A DNA stretch of 53,245 nucleotides, taken from assembly GCA_018402155.1 (NCBI GenBank), contig JAGYJG010000002.1, positions 1 through 53,245 of the forward strand. The letters are read 5' to 3'. The position numbers and the translations under genes were made by a program. The stretch is from Bacteroidia bacterium. GTDB taxonomy: Bacteria > Bacteroidota > Bacteroidia > NS11-12g > UBA9320. Shown piece by piece: positions 3,300 through 51,575 of the stretch. Under the pieces are notes generated by a model. That model saw nothing but the letters and a program-made list of their open reading frames with translations, was not told the origin of the DNA and searched no databases. Position 1 is the stretch's first letter. Each line of letters opens with the position of its first letter.

Positions 3300-4194
3300 A
3301 GAATTATTGATTAGTTATGGGTGAGGGATTCAGGATTTTTGACGCAGTAATTTCAGCTTTGAATGGATAGGCTGCAGGCACAAGACTAATTAGCGTTAAA
3401 CAACAGCCTTGTTTTTCACAAATGCCACTGCAGGGTTTTATTTTGCGCCTGTGGAGCACTAGAGGACGCAGTCCTCTAACCCCTGCGGCTGCCGCGAGCT
3501 TAGCGAGAGGCAAAAATGGCGCAGAACTTGCGCCTAAGGTGTACTTTTTTGTACCCAAAAGACGGTGGGTCACACGTTTGTTTTTGGGTAATCATTGATT
3601 GAATTATTCCTTAAAATAGCCAAACGAAAAAAGTGTCGCTCGCTACGCTCGCGAATCGTCTGGGGGAAAGGGCTATCGCCCTTAAAAACCGCTTTTTTAG
3701 TATGCGAGAAACACAATCATCAAAAAACAACAAGCGACACAAGGCCAACTGCCTCCAAAAGTTATCCGCATTGTTGGACGCTATTTACTTGATAATGTGC
3801 ATGTTATGTTGTACCTTAAAATTTCCCATAAAAATTTCCCATAAAAATTTCCCTTAAAAATTAAATAGTGCTATATTCACGGAATCAATCAATGAAAACG
3901 ACGTGAAAACGCGCTAAACAACGTAGCTAGTTGCAAGGCCGAAAAAAGCAAAAAAATGGTGCTGTATTTAGCACAACACAGGTAAAAAATGCTTCTCTTC
4001 AAACGGATTTATGTTTCTTTTGTATTTAGTGATTATTTCTTTCGGTAATCAGAGTTTTGGTGGAACCTATAGTTCTTAGCTTTTTGGCTAAGTGCGGCTC
4101 TGTTAGCGTCTTTTGAGTTATTTTTGAGCGTGCCGTAGGGTATGGCTCTTATTTTTATGTATCGGAGCACAAGTTCCACAAATTTTTAAATTTT
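3300..4194. other. Gene-free, hairpin-rich spacer of about 900 bp
   Basis: No convincing gene is present; the open frames here lack family likeness and look like read-through of GC-rich debris. What can be seen: a hairpin TAGAGGA/TCCTCTA at 3460-3478; a GC-rich block (about 3480-3540); a hairpin AAGGGC-TATC-GCCCTT at 3668-3683; three tandem ~14-bp repeats of AAAATTTCCCAT type at about 3817-3862; and a hairpin CTTAGC/GCTAAG at 4075-4092. A 22-codon ATG frame at 4011-4079 (MFLLYLVIISFGNQSF...) could encode a tiny secreted peptide but has no support. Confidence 0.5.
3817..3862 (+). repeat. Short tandem repeat, about 14-bp unit
   Basis: The unit AAAATTTCCCATA is present three times in a row (the last with CCCTT), on the + strand. 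It lies in the gene-free spacer between pdhB and the lipoprotein pair and could vary in number by slippage. Confidence 0.6.
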
Positions 4195-47146: not shown

Positions 47147-48493
47147 ATGCACAACCTACAAGATACCATAACAGCACCGGCCACACCTGCAGGCGTATCT
47201 GCTTTAGCAGTAATACGTGTGTCTGGCGCTCATGCCATAGCAATAGCCAATCAGTGTTTTGATAAAAACATAGAAAATGCAGAAGGCTACACCATACACT
47301 ACGGACACATTGTAGATGATACAGTGCGGATAGATGAGGTACTTCTCAGTGTATTTAGAAACCCGCATAGCTACACGGGAGAAGACTCGGTAGAAATATC
47401 TGGCCATGGATCGCCCTATATCACCCGCCGTATTATAGAAACTCTTCTCAAAAACGGAGCTCGTATGGCAGAGCCCGGAGAGTTCACGTTACGTGCATTT
47501 TTGAACCAAAAATTAGACTTGGCACAGGCAGAGGCGGTAGCAGATATGATAAGTAGCAATAGCGAAGCGAGCTTGCAAATGGCACTTAGCCAGATGCGAG
47601 GCGGTTTTAGTAAAGATATTGCTGTGCTACGCCAGGAGTTAATAGATTTTGCGGCACTTATAGAGTTAGAAAATGATTTTGGAGAAGAAGATGTAGAATT
47701 TGCGGATAGGGAAGGTCTAAAAGTACTAATAGCCAAGTTGCTCACTCAAATAGAGAAGCTACGTAGCTCTTTTGCCGCAGGGAATGTGCTGAAAAATGGG
47801 ATAAACACCGTACTAGCAGGAAAACCCAATGCTGGTAAAAGTACATTACTCAATGCATTGCTAAATGAAGAGCGTGCTATTGTATCAGAAATAGCGGGCA
47901 CTACCAGAGACACTATTGAGGAGGTTTTTACGCTTAATGGTATGCAGTTTAGACTTATAGACACGGCAGGATTGAGAGAAAGTAGTGACACCATAGAGCA
48001 AATAGGTGTAGGTAAAACCAAAGAAAGCATGCGCAAAGCAGAGTTGCTGGTTTATCTTTTTGACCTATCTACCACCACTCCAGCACAATTGGGAGAAGAA
48101 CTAAAAGCCTTGCCACCCTCGGGGCAAACTATAGTGGTTGCCAACAAAGCTGAAATAGGAAGGTATACGCTTTCAGACTGGCCAGAAAGCACTGTTTTTA
48201 TTTCTGCCAAAGAGCTAGAAATACAGCCACTACTGAGTGAGTTAGAGCGTGTAGCAAGCCATTATGAGTTGGGCAACGAAACGGTTATAAACAATGCTAG
48301 ACATGCTGATGCACTAGCCAAAAGCTCAGAAGCACTACAAAAAGTATTGCACGGCCTAGACCACGGATTAACTAGCGATATGGTTGCCTTAGACATACGC
48401 AACGCATTATTTCAATTGGGACTTATAACCGGAGAAGTAACCAACGATGAGGTGTTGGATTCAATTTTTACACGATTTTGTATCGGAAAGTAG
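47147..48493 (+). CDS. mnmE: tRNA modification GTPase MnmE
   Basis: The 448-residue protein is complete: the N-terminal tetrahydrofolate-binding domain (MHNLQDTITAPATPAGVSAL), helical domain, the inserted G domain (Walker A AGKPNAGKSTLLNALL, GTTRDTIEE, DTAGLRE, NKAE) and the conserved C-terminal FTRFCIGK with its essential cysteine. With MnmG it installs the cmnm5 group at U34 of certain tRNAs. The mobile island begins in the 235 bp after its stop, so the gene itself is not disrupted. Confidence 0.97.
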   Translation: MHNLQDTITAPATPAGVSALAVIRVSGAHAIAIANQCFDKNIENAEGYTIHYGHIVDDTVRIDEVLLSVFRNPHSYTGEDSVEISGHGSPYITRRIIETLLKNGARMAEPGEFTLRAFLNQKLDLAQAEAVADMISSNSEASLQMALSQMRGGFSKDIAVLRQELIDFAALIELENDFGEEDVEFADREGLKVLIAKLLTQIEKLRSSFAAGNVLKNGINTVLAGKPNAGKSTLLNALLNEERAIVSEIAGTTRDTIEEVFTLNGMQFRLIDTAGLRESSDTIEQIGVGKTKESMRKAELLVYLFDLSTTTPAQLGEELKALPPSGQTIVVANKAEIGRYTLSDWPESTVFISAKELEIQPLLSELERVASHYELGNETVINNARHADALAKSSEALQKVLHGLDHGLTSDMVALDIRNALFQLGLITGEVTNDEVLDSIFTRFCIGK

Positions 48494-48557
48494 TAACAGT
48501 ATTAGTCTGTCTGACGTAATACGATTTAAACACACAAATCCCTGTAATATTGAGCGT

Positions 48558-48595: not shown

Positions 48596-48627
48596 TTGTA
48601 TTATCCAATAGTGTAATTGTATCTTTG
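48596..48627 (+). promoter_or_regulatory. Candidate promoter of the island's first operon
   Basis: TTG at 48596-48598, a 21-bp spacer and TATCTTTG at 48620-48627 fit the Bacteroidota promoter. The resulting leader of about 95 nt would contain the phased TTACA repeats. Confidence 0.45.
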
Positions 48628-48656
48628 TTGTATCTTAATGTTTAAAGGTACAATTA
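48614..48656. promoter_or_regulatory. 8-bp inverted repeat TAATTGTA / TACAATTA
   Basis: TAATTGTA at 48614-48621 and TACAATTA at 48649-48656 are perfect inverted copies 27 bp apart, and TTGTATC occurs twice 11 bp apart (48617 and 48628). Could be arm or core sites of the integrase, or an operator; not distinguishable by eye. Confidence 0.35.
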
Positions 48657-48680
48657 TTTGCAATTTCTTTTGTTTAATAG

Positions 48681-48728
48681 TTACACTTTGTTACATTATG
48701 TTACAATTTTTTACAAAATGTTATATAA
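48681..48728 (+). repeat. Five 10-bp-phased TTACA repeats before the island's HTH gene
   Basis: TTACACTTTG, TTACATTATG, TTACAATTTT, TTACAAAATG and TTATATAAAT follow each other at exactly 10 bp (48681, 48691, 48701, 48711, 48721), ending at the ATG at 48729. The helical spacing puts all copies on one DNA face, as in arrays bound by excisionase or initiator proteins. Confidence 0.7.
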
Positions 48729-49082
48729 ATGAGTAGTACCTTAACCATACCCAAGATTTGTTTTGAATGTAACAGTACATTTATTGCAAAAACAACAGTT
48801 ACAAAGTTTTGCAGTCAAAAATGCGCTGGACGAGCATACAAGAAAAATAAAAGAAATGAAAAAATTGCTGCAGCAAAGAAGCAAGAATATGAAAAAGCAG
48901 TTGGTGTGGATATGACTCTAATACAATCAAAAGAGTATTTAAGCATAAAGGAAACGTGTCTTCTGCTTGGTATCAGTAGAATGAGTTTGTATCGGTACAT
49001 CAAGAATAAGACAATCATTCCATCCCGTGTTGGAGGAAAAGTAATAATCAAAAAACAAGTAATAACCAACGTTATAAAATAA
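48729..49082 (+). CDS. Zinc-ribbon plus HTH excisionase-like DNA-binding protein
   Basis: The 117-residue protein has four cysteines (C11, C14, C28, C32: CxxC-x13-CxxxC) forming a probable zinc ribbon, a Lys/Arg-rich linker (about 35-50) and a MerR/excisionase-type helix-turn-helix (YLSIKETCLLLGISRMSLYR, YIKNKTIIPSRVGGKVIIKK). It stops three bases before the integrase gene and begins directly after the phased TTACA array, so it is a good candidate to bind that array and control integrase expression or excision. This is inference from context. Confidence 0.82.
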   Translation: MSSTLTIPKICFECNSTFIAKTTVTKFCSQKCAGRAYKKNKRNEKIAAAKKQEYEKAVGVDMTLIQSKEYLSIKETCLLLGISRMSLYRYIKNKTIIPSRVGGKVIIKKQVITNVIK

Positions 49083-49085
49083 ACT

Positions 49086-50204
49086 ATGGGCGTACATTTA
49101 AGAAAAAAGAAAATTGCTAATGGCAAGGAAAGTTTGTATTTGGATTTTTACCCTCCAATAAAAGGGGGTCATGGCAAACTCACAAGAAGGGAATATCTTA
49201 ACAAGTATATCTATGAAAACCCAAAAAACGCAGATGAAAAACTTCAAAATAAAGAAAACTTGATTATTGCAGAGGGCATTAAAAACAAACGAGAAAAGGA
49301 AATATTAAACGAGCAAGATGGAATTTTCAACACTCAAAACAAGAAGCGTGATTTTTTAGAGTTTTTTGAAAATCTATGCGAAAAGCGCAAAGAAAGCGAA
49401 GGAAATTATGGTAACTGGTTAAGTGCATTACAATACTTAAGAGCATTTACTGGAGGAAAGTGTAAAATGGGTGATTTAACAGAAGAATTTTGTGAAAAGT
49501 TCAAAGAGTATCTACTCCATGCTAATAGGCTAAATACAGTTAAAGGATTGAAGTTGTCACAAAATTCAGCGTTAAGTTATTTTAACAAGTTCAGATGCGC
49601 AATTAACGAAGCATACGAATCTCGGCTCATAAATGAAAACCCTTTGCGTCACGTCAAAGGGATTAAGCAAAAGGAAAGCAAAAGGGAGTTTTTAACACAA
49701 GAAGAATTGCAATTATTGGCTCAAACAGAATGTGATTTGTTGCCTTTAAAAAATGTAGCACTTTTTTCAGCCTTGACTGGCTTGAGGTGGGGTGATATCA
49801 GTAAATTAAAATGGAGTGACGTTCAATTAACCGAAACTGGTTATTTTATTCATATTGTACAAAAGAAAACAACTGACGTGATAATGCACCCAATTAGTGA
49901 AACTGCGGTCAAACTGCTCGGTGTTCGATGTAACACAAGTGAAGCAATTTTTGAGGACTTGAAATATACAGATAGTAATAATGATAAAATTAAGCGTTGG
50001 GTCTTAAAGGCGGGTATTCATAAAAAAATTACACTTCACAATTTTCGCCACACCTATGCTACTTTACTTCTTAATAAAGGAGTTGACATATATACAGTTT
50101 CCAAAATGCTTGGACATAAGAAGATAGAAACAACAATGATTTATGCAAAAGTGTTAAGTGAAACAAAAGTAAAAGCAGCAAATGTAATAGACATAGAACT
50201 ATGA
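49086..50204 (+). CDS. Tyrosine recombinase (phage integrase family)
   Basis: The 372-residue protein has an Arm-type N-terminal region, a SAM-like core-binding domain (about 88-190) and the catalytic domain. Catalytic residues are all visible: R234 (TGLRWGDISK), K260, H318 and R321 (HNFRHTYATLL), H344 (MLGHKKIETT) and Y353 (MIYAKV). The layout is that of Bacteroidota conjugative-transposon/genomic-island integrases. It probably integrated the island next to mnmE. It overlaps the next gene by four bases (ATGA). Confidence 0.93.
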   Translation: MGVHLRKKKIANGKESLYLDFYPPIKGGHGKLTRREYLNKYIYENPKNADEKLQNKENLIIAEGIKNKREKEILNEQDGIFNTQNKKRDFLEFFENLCEKRKESEGNYGNWLSALQYLRAFTGGKCKMGDLTEEFCEKFKEYLLHANRLNTVKGLKLSQNSALSYFNKFRCAINEAYESRLINENPLRHVKGIKQKESKREFLTQEELQLLAQTECDLLPLKNVALFSALTGLRWGDISKLKWSDVQLTETGYFIHIVQKKTTDVIMHPISETAVKLLGVRCNTSEAIFEDLKYTDSNNDKIKRWVLKAGIHKKITLHNFRHTYATLLLNKGVDIYTVSKMLGHKKIETTMIYAKVLSETKVKAANVIDIEL

Positions 50205-51112
50205 TTGAATCAGCAGATAATTTCCCAAATGTTAAGCGACACGTTTATGACGTTGATGCTTTTGAAATCTTAGACAGATTAAGAGATAAATATCTAAAAG
50301 AGGAAGGATTTGTAACAGAGCAAATGCTTTTACTTGAGGAGGAAAATTTACTTAAACTTTTGGATGCAGAAGGATATAATACAAAGGAGCGTCAAAAATA
50401 TAGAAACTTCATCTTACCCTCAAATTTTAATCATTACAACAATTTTTTAGCCTACAAATTATTAACTATAGACCCATACAAAATAGAACTAGTTCTATCA
50501 TACCAGTCAGTATTTTTTTTAGGTAATTCTTACGCCGTGAAAGAAAATTTTATGGGATTACTTGAGTTTTTAGTCTATGACTTCGTTCAAAAACGTGTTC
50601 TTCCAAACGAGCAAATTAGATTGGAAAAAATAGTTAATTGGTTGGAGCGAAAAAGAGCTTTTTTACTTGCAAAAGCACACAATGAAATAGATGTAGGGGA
50701 TACAATTCGACCTAAAAGAACAATAATAATGGATCCTGAATTTGCGAATATTTTATATGAAAAGTTAAAATGTTTTTTTGAAGGGCAAGAAACAGCCCTT
50801 TACAATAAATTAATTAAGAATGAAATTACCAAAACATTGGTTTTTGATGGGAATGCAAACCAATTAGCCGAATTATTTAAACGGTTGCGTTATAATGCAC
50901 AAATCACAGTATCTACCAATAAACTTTTGGCGGAATGGTTAGTAGAGGGTTTTTGTAACATTAATACACGAGGTAAAATTTCGAGATTGGTATTCAGTAC
51001 GGTAGAGGGGATCTTAAAAAACAGAAATAGAGAGCCACAAAAAAAAAATCGAATTTTAATAGAGGTAGCCCAGTATTTACTGCCGGGAAACAGAAAAATC
51101 GATAAAAAATAA
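50201..51112 (+). CDS. Hypothetical protein coupled to the integrase
   Basis: The 303-residue protein starts inside the integrase stop (ATGA overlap), so its translation is coupled. It is rich in charged helices, without signal or membrane segments. The C-terminal third (FANILYEKLKCFFEGQETAL, NQLAELFKRLRYNAQITVST, WLVEGFCNINTRGKISRLVF) resembles the C-terminal pattern of RteC-like regulators in Bacteroidota mobile elements; this likeness is weak. A role in mobility or its control is inferred from position. Confidence 0.7.
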   Translation: MIESADNFPNVKRHVYDVDAFEILDRLRDKYLKEEGFVTEQMLLLEEENLLKLLDAEGYNTKERQKYRNFILPSNFNHYNNFLAYKLLTIDPYKIELVLSYQSVFFLGNSYAVKENFMGLLEFLVYDFVQKRVLPNEQIRLEKIVNWLERKRAFLLAKAHNEIDVGDTIRPKRTIIMDPEFANILYEKLKCFFEGQETALYNKLIKNEITKTLVFDGNANQLAELFKRLRYNAQITVSTNKLLAEWLVEGFCNINTRGKISRLVFSTVEGILKNRNREPQKKNRILIEVAQYLLPGNRKIDKK

Positions 51113-51215: not shown

Positions 51216-51575
51216 ATGAACAAAGAAGAAGTAACATTGGTAGAATTACTACCAAAAATTTATCACCACATTAACGTGGCAGTTTCAAAAGCATTTATGT
51301 TGGCATTGGAACAATTCAAAAAGGACAACGCTCAAAAATCATCTTATGCAGATGAGGATTTTCTATCTGCCAAACAAGCAGCATCTTTTTTGAAACTGAA
51401 ACTCAACACAATTTATTCTAAAGCCGAAAAGGGCGAGTTGCCTTTTTACCGCAGTGGTAAGCGAAAACTTCTTTTTTCTAAAAAGGAATTGGAACAGCAC
51501 GTCCTAAAAAGAAAAGTTAAAAGTCTTGAAGAACTAAAAGAAGAAGTGGAACAATATAGTAGAAAGAAAAAATGA
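51216..51575 (+). CDS. Excisionase-family HTH protein
   Basis: The 119-residue protein has a helical N-terminus (VELLPKIYHHINVAVSKAFM) and a MerR-like excisionase HTH in the C-terminal half (FLSAKQAASFLKLKLNTIYS, AEKGELPFYRSGKRKLLFSK). Such proteins bend DNA at attachment sites or regulate transfer genes. It is the second HTH of this type in the island; the layout (HTH, integrase, unknown, HTH) is common in Bacteroidota islands. A promoter is likely in the AT-rich 100 bp upstream. Confidence 0.85.
   Translation: MNKEEVTLVELLPKIYHHINVAVSKAFMLALEQFKKDNAQKSSYADEDFLSAKQAASFLKLKLNTIYSKAEKGELPFYRSGKRKLLFSKKELEQHVLKRKVKSLEELKEEVEQYSRKKK

Follow-up and report, generated by a model that had tools for sequence, protein, structure and literature searches.

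Recombination directionality factors (RDFs) bind cooperatively to direct repeats placed one helical turn apart, and five such repeats are described at the attachment (att) site of coliphage 186 (PMC7498355). In the account given of RdfS, each protomer covers 10 bp of DNA (PMC11963761), and IntS and TorI of KplE1 are both described as repressing int from sites in attL (PMC2951348). An IntCTnDOT subgroup of integrases has been described for Bacteroidetes (PMC8138268), and a Riemerella island has been described at a tRNA site (PMC9745183). A literature search of limited scope recovered neither published integrase islands at mnmE in Bacteroidetes nor a zinc excisionase associated with direct repeats and an integrase in Flavobacteria. 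Here, we analyze an array of 10-bp direct repeats that precedes a gene for a small zinc-ribbon-like and winged helix-turn-helix (HTH) protein, in an island inserted at the 3' end of mnmE in a Bacteroidia bacterium (GTDB lineage Bacteroidota; Bacteroidia; NS11-12g; UBA9320). The window, meaning the whole stretch of DNA analyzed, comprises 53,245 nucleotides (assembly GCA_018402155.1, contig JAGYJG010000002.1, positions 1 to 53,245 of the forward strand). We consider it probable, from comparison of sequences and folds, that the array is the site of an Xis-type filament formed by a zinc-ribbon/winged-HTH RDF of Bacteroidota mnmE islands and that it acts in excision.

The array occupies positions 48680-48729 of the forward strand and consists of the units GTTACACTTT, GTTACATTAT, GTTACAATTT, TTTACAAAAT, and GTTATATAAA, the predicted filament site of the HTH protein. 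The pentamer TTACA is exact in four of them (48681, 48691, 48701, and 48711), and the fifth reads TTATA (48721). The preliminary description of this DNA had counted five direct repeats at exactly 10-bp spacing; the spacing is indeed strictly 10 bp, but the count has to be amended to four exact copies and one degenerate unit. It had also placed the end of the repeats at the start codon of a zinc-ribbon/HTH gene followed by an integrase gene, and on this the coordinates and domain matches agree, the array ending at the ATG (48729) of the gene for the 117-amino-acid HTH protein. The array is the only run of at least four identical pentamers at periods of 6 to 12, 14, or 15 in the window (a run at 13 bp is located elsewhere), and comparable runs at periods of 8 to 12 arose in none of 100 first-order Markov simulations. 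Across the 2.49-Mb genome, the pattern TTACA-N5-TTACA-N5-TTACA, with at most one mismatch, gave three overlapping matches, all of them at the array, and its reversed control gave none.

Profile searches with the HTH protein gave matches in 41 of 108 genomes of the order (E values up to 0.001, many of them partial), in 44 of 395 sampled genomes of the class and 21 of 395 of the phylum (E values up to 1e-15), and in 47 of 349 and 16 of 299 genomes of two further groups (E values up to 1e-18). A collection of named genomes provided 72 loci with a homolog, whose hosts include Chryseobacterium, Algoriphagus, Aequorivita, Sphingobacterium, Maribacter, Draconibacterium, and Roseivirga. The end of mnmE lies at most 500 bp before the HTH gene in 56 of 68, 63 of 66, and 64 of 66 loci of the three sets analyzed, and an integrase is present in 63 of the 66 loci of the named-genome set. 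In the region from -75 to +3 of 48 mnmE-linked, non-redundant loci, mean identity reached 0.47 for a lag of 10 and 0.44 for a lag of 20, and every other lag between 3 and 25 gave 0.23 to 0.30; in the first 75 coding bases, the identity for a lag of 10 was 0.23. The preliminary description had stated that its reading would be refuted if homologous islands had lost the 10-bp period; we observed that the period is retained. Taken individually, 34 of the 57 non-redundant loci, whether or not linked to mnmE, reached the floor of 1 in 301 shuffles, and an array was called in 65 of 85 non-redundant loci. The units themselves vary (they include GTTACA, GATACA, GCTACA, GCAACA, GCACCA, GGCACA/GACACA, GAAACA, TTGAC, TGACAG, and CACTTAA), and the arrays of 46 loci contained four (16 loci), five (24 loci), six (5 loci), or seven units (1 locus). 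The weights of the array caller were adjusted once, after the second locus set had been seen with the first version, and the adjusted caller was used in the tests of covariation, arm sites, attR, register, the third set, the rule, and the promoter described below. Both versions favor G at unit position 1, A or C at 4, C at 5, and A at 6, and neither weights base identity at positions 2 and 3.

The bases at those two positions covary with the protein. Residue 85 of the HTH protein ranks first among 441 columns of the HTH protein and integrase for both bases (60 non-redundant pairs), with 1.23 bits for base 2 (z = 14.2) and 1.18 bits for base 3 (z = 13.1); the protein set was used without L021, which has an in-frame stop, and L106, a duplicate of L089, and the integrase alignment was not usable for 5 of the 65 called loci. 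Tryptophan at this residue goes with GC[TA][AC]CA, methionine with [TA]TACA, RR or KR with nCACA, threonine with GAAACA, and glutamine, in part, with TT[GT]AC. For unit base 6, the top column is the wing residue R100. A rule linking residue to unit, noted before the second and third locus sets were fetched, was right in 45 of 48 new loci that had a called array and were less than 90% identical to earlier loci (46 of 52 with weak array calls added), whereas in 20,000 trials with shuffled units it was right in 16.4 of the 48 on average and in 28 at most. On a tree of 49 integrases with their arm domains removed, we count at least 15 changes of the helix residue and two of the arm type; threonine with GAAACA occurs in three places (L062, L088, and L184), and methionine occurs in two clades that differ in arm type. 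The covariation and the success of the rule argue that the 117-amino-acid protein very probably binds the array. The rule failed in L125, L175, and L275 among called arrays and in L147, L162, and L176 among weak calls. The sole homolog from the viral collection, L275 (an IMG/VR contig), has methionine at residue 85 yet carries GGTACG/GATACG units, and neither an mnmE end nor an integrase was found in its stretch. Another group that falls outside the rule (L225, L234, L236, L244-L247, and L249) has SER before the threonine in the helix and TGACAG units, always after mnmE.

The HTH protein is encoded at 48729..49082 on the forward strand and combines a zinc-ribbon-like part (C11, C14, C28, and C32) with a winged HTH_17/'excise' domain. 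In its AlphaFold2 model (mean predicted local distance difference test score of 86.8), residue 85, a methionine in the window, is the second residue of the recognition helix (residues 84-92). The best fold match of model residues 65-117 is the Xis of phage Pukovnik (Z of 8.9 and root mean square deviation of 1.1 over 51 residues), which was also matched by sequence profile (E value of 0.00077); the next fold matches of the HTH domain are BldC on DNA, the GIsul2 excisionase, RdfS, Tn916 Xis, and lambda Xis, and profile search returned excisionase families. VIA-align gave no folds over residues 1-62 and is uninformative for this zinc-ribbon part. The locus brings together four features of Xis-type winged-HTH RDFs, namely, an excisionase/MerR fold, direct repeats about one turn apart (assigned to the 117-amino-acid protein via the covariation), sites in the att arm close to those of the integrase, and a tyrosine integrase as partner, and the protein is probably an RDF. 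Some orthologs (L038, L073, L090, and L163) have two to four HTH_17-like domains.

The att site and the integrase arm sites, neither of which figured in the preliminary description, bear most on the role of the array. The gene at 47147..48493 (forward strand), which we take to be mnmE (trmE), encodes a protein ending in ...FTRFCIGK, and its 3' end is the attachment site of the island: the 16-bp attL core TGTATCGGAAAGTAGT lies at 48479..48494 on the forward strand and is an exact repeat. Its second exact copy, attR, was found outside the window at C1:30560 (C1 being another contig of the assembly), beside a gene that is presumably mscS-like. In two of seven loci of same-genus relatives, the end of mnmE is about 1.4 kb from the mscS-like flank; in the stretches of the other five it was not present, and an exact empty junction was found in none of the seven. 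The core copy on C1 and the short spacing in these relatives therefore make it most likely that the island leaves the end of the window's contig (C3) and enters the start of C1, spanning about 35 kb plus the gap. In 14 further islands, same-strand second core copies 8 to 41 kb away mark the other end. The tyrosine integrase (372 amino acids; 49086..50204, forward strand) has Arm-DNA-bind_5, SAM_5, and Phage_integrase domains, i.e., the arm-binding, SAM-like, and catalytic parts; R234, H318, R321, H344, and Y353, which we assume to be the catalytic R, H-x-x-R, H, and Y, are invariant among five sequences.

Between mnmE and the array lies a predicted arm-type pair of TTGTATC sites (48617..48634, forward strand; sites at 48617 and 48628, 11 bp apart), followed by a predicted inverted arm-type site, GGTACAA, at 48647..48653 on the reverse strand. 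Similar pairs occur at both attL and attR, the attR on C1 having TTGTATC and TTGTACC. attL carries direct pairs of TTGTAYC or TTGTTGC with 11-bp spacing, and such pairs recur in 11 of the 16 attR stretches, where the sites lie 59-61/48-50 or 81-82/70-71 bp inside the core; one of the 16, L112, is an mnmE fragment and not an attR. The arm type tracks integrase residues, K8 being the top column, and the column of the HTH helix comes no higher than 24th of 445. In L079 and L081, an RR helix and an nCACA array stand beside TTGTTGC arms; array and arm specificities therefore combine freely. These pairs are probable integrase arm sites, judging from their placement and covariation. A second array was not found at attR: the 15 true attR stretches scored 3.1 to 4.9 on the forward strand and up to 5.0 on the reverse, compared with 5.6 to 7.2 at attL, except for L091 (3.5). 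L088 and L258, of Chryseobacterium type, have upstream TTGTTTC/CGTTTC-like repeats, perhaps a third arm type, which were not counted in the scan.

The position of the array follows that of the arm sites. Of 27 loci, 26 had the array start 52, 53, 61, 62, or 63 bp from the second arm site and one had it at 42 bp, giving a circular R of 0.94, against 0.38 for the distance to the ATG in the same loci. The latter distance ranged from -38 to -160; L093 and L180 have their arrays 102 and 160 bp ahead of the gene, respectively, and still 52-53 bp from the arm site. Because the phase of the array follows the arm pair and not the ATG, a role in the recombination complex is favored over that of a pure operator. 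A putative Bacteroidota-type promoter at 48596..48627 (forward strand), with TTG at 48596 and TATCTTTG at 48620, overlaps the first arm site. The latter box fits TAnnTTTG, which we take to be a promoter consensus; 37 of 65 loci have it upstream, against an expectation of 15.3, and it mostly stands 60 or 78 bp ahead of the array. Since it is enriched yet not in every locus, the promoter is only putative.

In the arrangement that we propose, about five HTH molecules would line up head to tail along a single face of the DNA, each taking up 10 bp, with the recognition helix reading unit bases 2-3 and the wing probably reading bases 6-9. The filament would be placed beside the arm-type sites of the mnmE-side attachment arm in a fixed helical register, a position from which it would probably bend this arm or help load the integrase for excision. 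The HTH protein would thereby act as an RDF of the Xis/Apl/TorI/RdfS kind, and a role in excision is likely. Because the rdf-int operon starts inside attL, the putative promoter overlaps an arm site, and the array is part of the leader, the same integrase and RDF complexes would probably also damp rdf-int expression, making autoregulation by both proteins plausible.

Several results weigh against the array being the filament site of an excision factor. No array was called in 20 of the 85 non-redundant loci, which were left out of the covariation count, and the tree-aware pair tests, which went in the predicted direction for tryptophan (three pairs on supported branches, six in all) and methionine (two pairs), involved too few pairs for significance and were uninformative for arginine. 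MerR-type regulators are interspersed among the fold matches at Z scores only slightly lower, the zinc ribbon is present in all orthologs, and many orthologs carry extra HTH domains. When the register was examined again in 28 new loci, 12 of them testable, it was weaker (R of 0.67), with one locus clearly off phase. Finally, arm pairs were lacking in the attR stretches of L114 (which has a distant site only), L121, and L123, and L113 has a single site.

The array could instead be only an autoregulatory operator through which rdf-int is repressed, at the DNA or leader-RNA level, with no part in excision. Its end does coincide with the start codon in the window, in most loci it is found directly before the gene, and it is downstream of the putative promoter, and the covariation speaks for binding and not for its purpose; moreover, the RDFs of 186, KplE1, and P4 are described as repressing promoters or int (PMC7498355, PMC2951348). 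We nevertheless regard this as unlikely, since the phase and distance of the array track the arm pair even where the gene is far off, as in L093 and L180, and the HTH fold is closest to those of excisionases. The proposal that the repeats are the integrase's own arm-type sites, like lambda P'123, draws on its Arm-DNA-bind_5 domain and on the fact that arm sites are usually direct repeats about one turn apart. It is very improbable and was rejected because the arm motif is a different one, occurs at both island ends, and tracks the integrase, whereas the array is found at the integrase end only and its unit tracks the HTH helix. Phased direct repeats before a gene for a DNA-binding protein would also suit iterons, i.e., an origin bound by a replication initiator, but a scan of six proteins encoded between 48729 and 53170 matched no replication family, the HTH protein falls into families of the excisionase type, and the array is tied to att sites, leaving this explanation, likewise rejected, slightly less credible still. 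The preliminary description had offered Xis-like filaments and initiator binding side by side, with autoregulation or the excision complex as the role; the former is supported by the retained period, the covariation with the recognition helix, the excisionase as best fold match, and the register to the arm sites, and the latter is not supported, no replication protein having been matched among the scanned neighbors. As for chance periodicity in AT-rich, low-complexity DNA, the unit is indeed AT-rich, but the simulations produced no such run and the period persists in many genera with other units, including the G+C-richer GCACCA; conservation of the period refutes this idea, to which we assign a negligible probability.

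Returning to the filament of an excision factor, it is possible, although doubtful, that islands with the mnmE 3' end as their common attB throughout the Bacteroidota diversify the specificity of these factors through a small recognition code, in which one helix residue would set unit bases 2-3 and the wing bases 6-9 while pitch and register stay fixed. Frequent switches, of the order of the at least 15 helix-residue changes against two changes of arm type, would then stop resident and incoming islands from excising each other.

Other features of the island and the window were observed as well. A gene for a 303-amino-acid protein (50201-51112, forward strand) overlaps the integrase stop codon and has no Pfam match; in L019, a similar start follows the integrase. 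Beyond these two genes, a second small HTH_17/'excise' gene (51216-51575, forward strand) is possibly a second island regulator. L112 and L113 (G296:C1:395719 and 401993) correspond to two att cores 6.3 kb apart downstream of one island, one of which is preceded by an apparent second mnmE 3' fragment, suggesting tandem islands. At G316:C22:569, 3817, and 6051, three same-strand att cores within 5.5 kb are possibly stacked small islands. Distant from the island, positions 3818-3870 of the window contain three near-perfect 13-bp tandem repeats (AAAATTTCCCATA).

If the filament reading is correct, zinc-ribbon/winged-HTH RDFs, each with a readable array, form a phylum-wide family at the Bacteroidota mnmE site, and they offer, for a filament-forming protein, a series of naturally occurring recognition-helix/DNA pairs. 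How a head-to-tail filament of the Xis type reads sequence yet keeps its pitch would become directly testable, and the excision factors of such islands could be found automatically, together with their att sites and integrase arm sites. The excision factors from the literature compared here belong to phages and elements from other phyla. Islands of the SGI1 family also integrate at the 3' end of trmE, that is, mnmE (PMC8409611), but they are gammaproteobacterial elements and are likened to this one by integration site. In KplE1, similarly to this island, attL is described as overlapping the int promoter and containing sites for both integrase and RDF (PMC2951348); its RDF and int genes are uncoupled, whereas here rdf and int are adjacent and co-oriented. 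Pukovnik Xis resembles the HTH domain in both fold and sequence but is about half as long, the solved chain of 54 residues being without the N-terminal zinc-ribbon part. RdfS of ICEMlSym-R7A and BldC of Streptomyces are described as winged-HTH proteins that oligomerize head to tail with about 10 bp, one turn, per protomer (PMC11963761). BldC, however, is a developmental regulator and not an RDF, and RdfS has no clear consensus motif, while the motif found here is sharp and covaries with the helix. Apl of coliphage 186 is a cooperative RDF and also a promoter repressor, and it is described with five direct repeats 10-11 bp apart at att, like the array studied here (PMC7498355). It differs in being a sequence outlier from another phylum for which no zinc ribbon is noted, and compared with it, the Bacteroidota locus has a strictly 10-bp spacing and a predicted RDF gene beside its own array, with int behind it.
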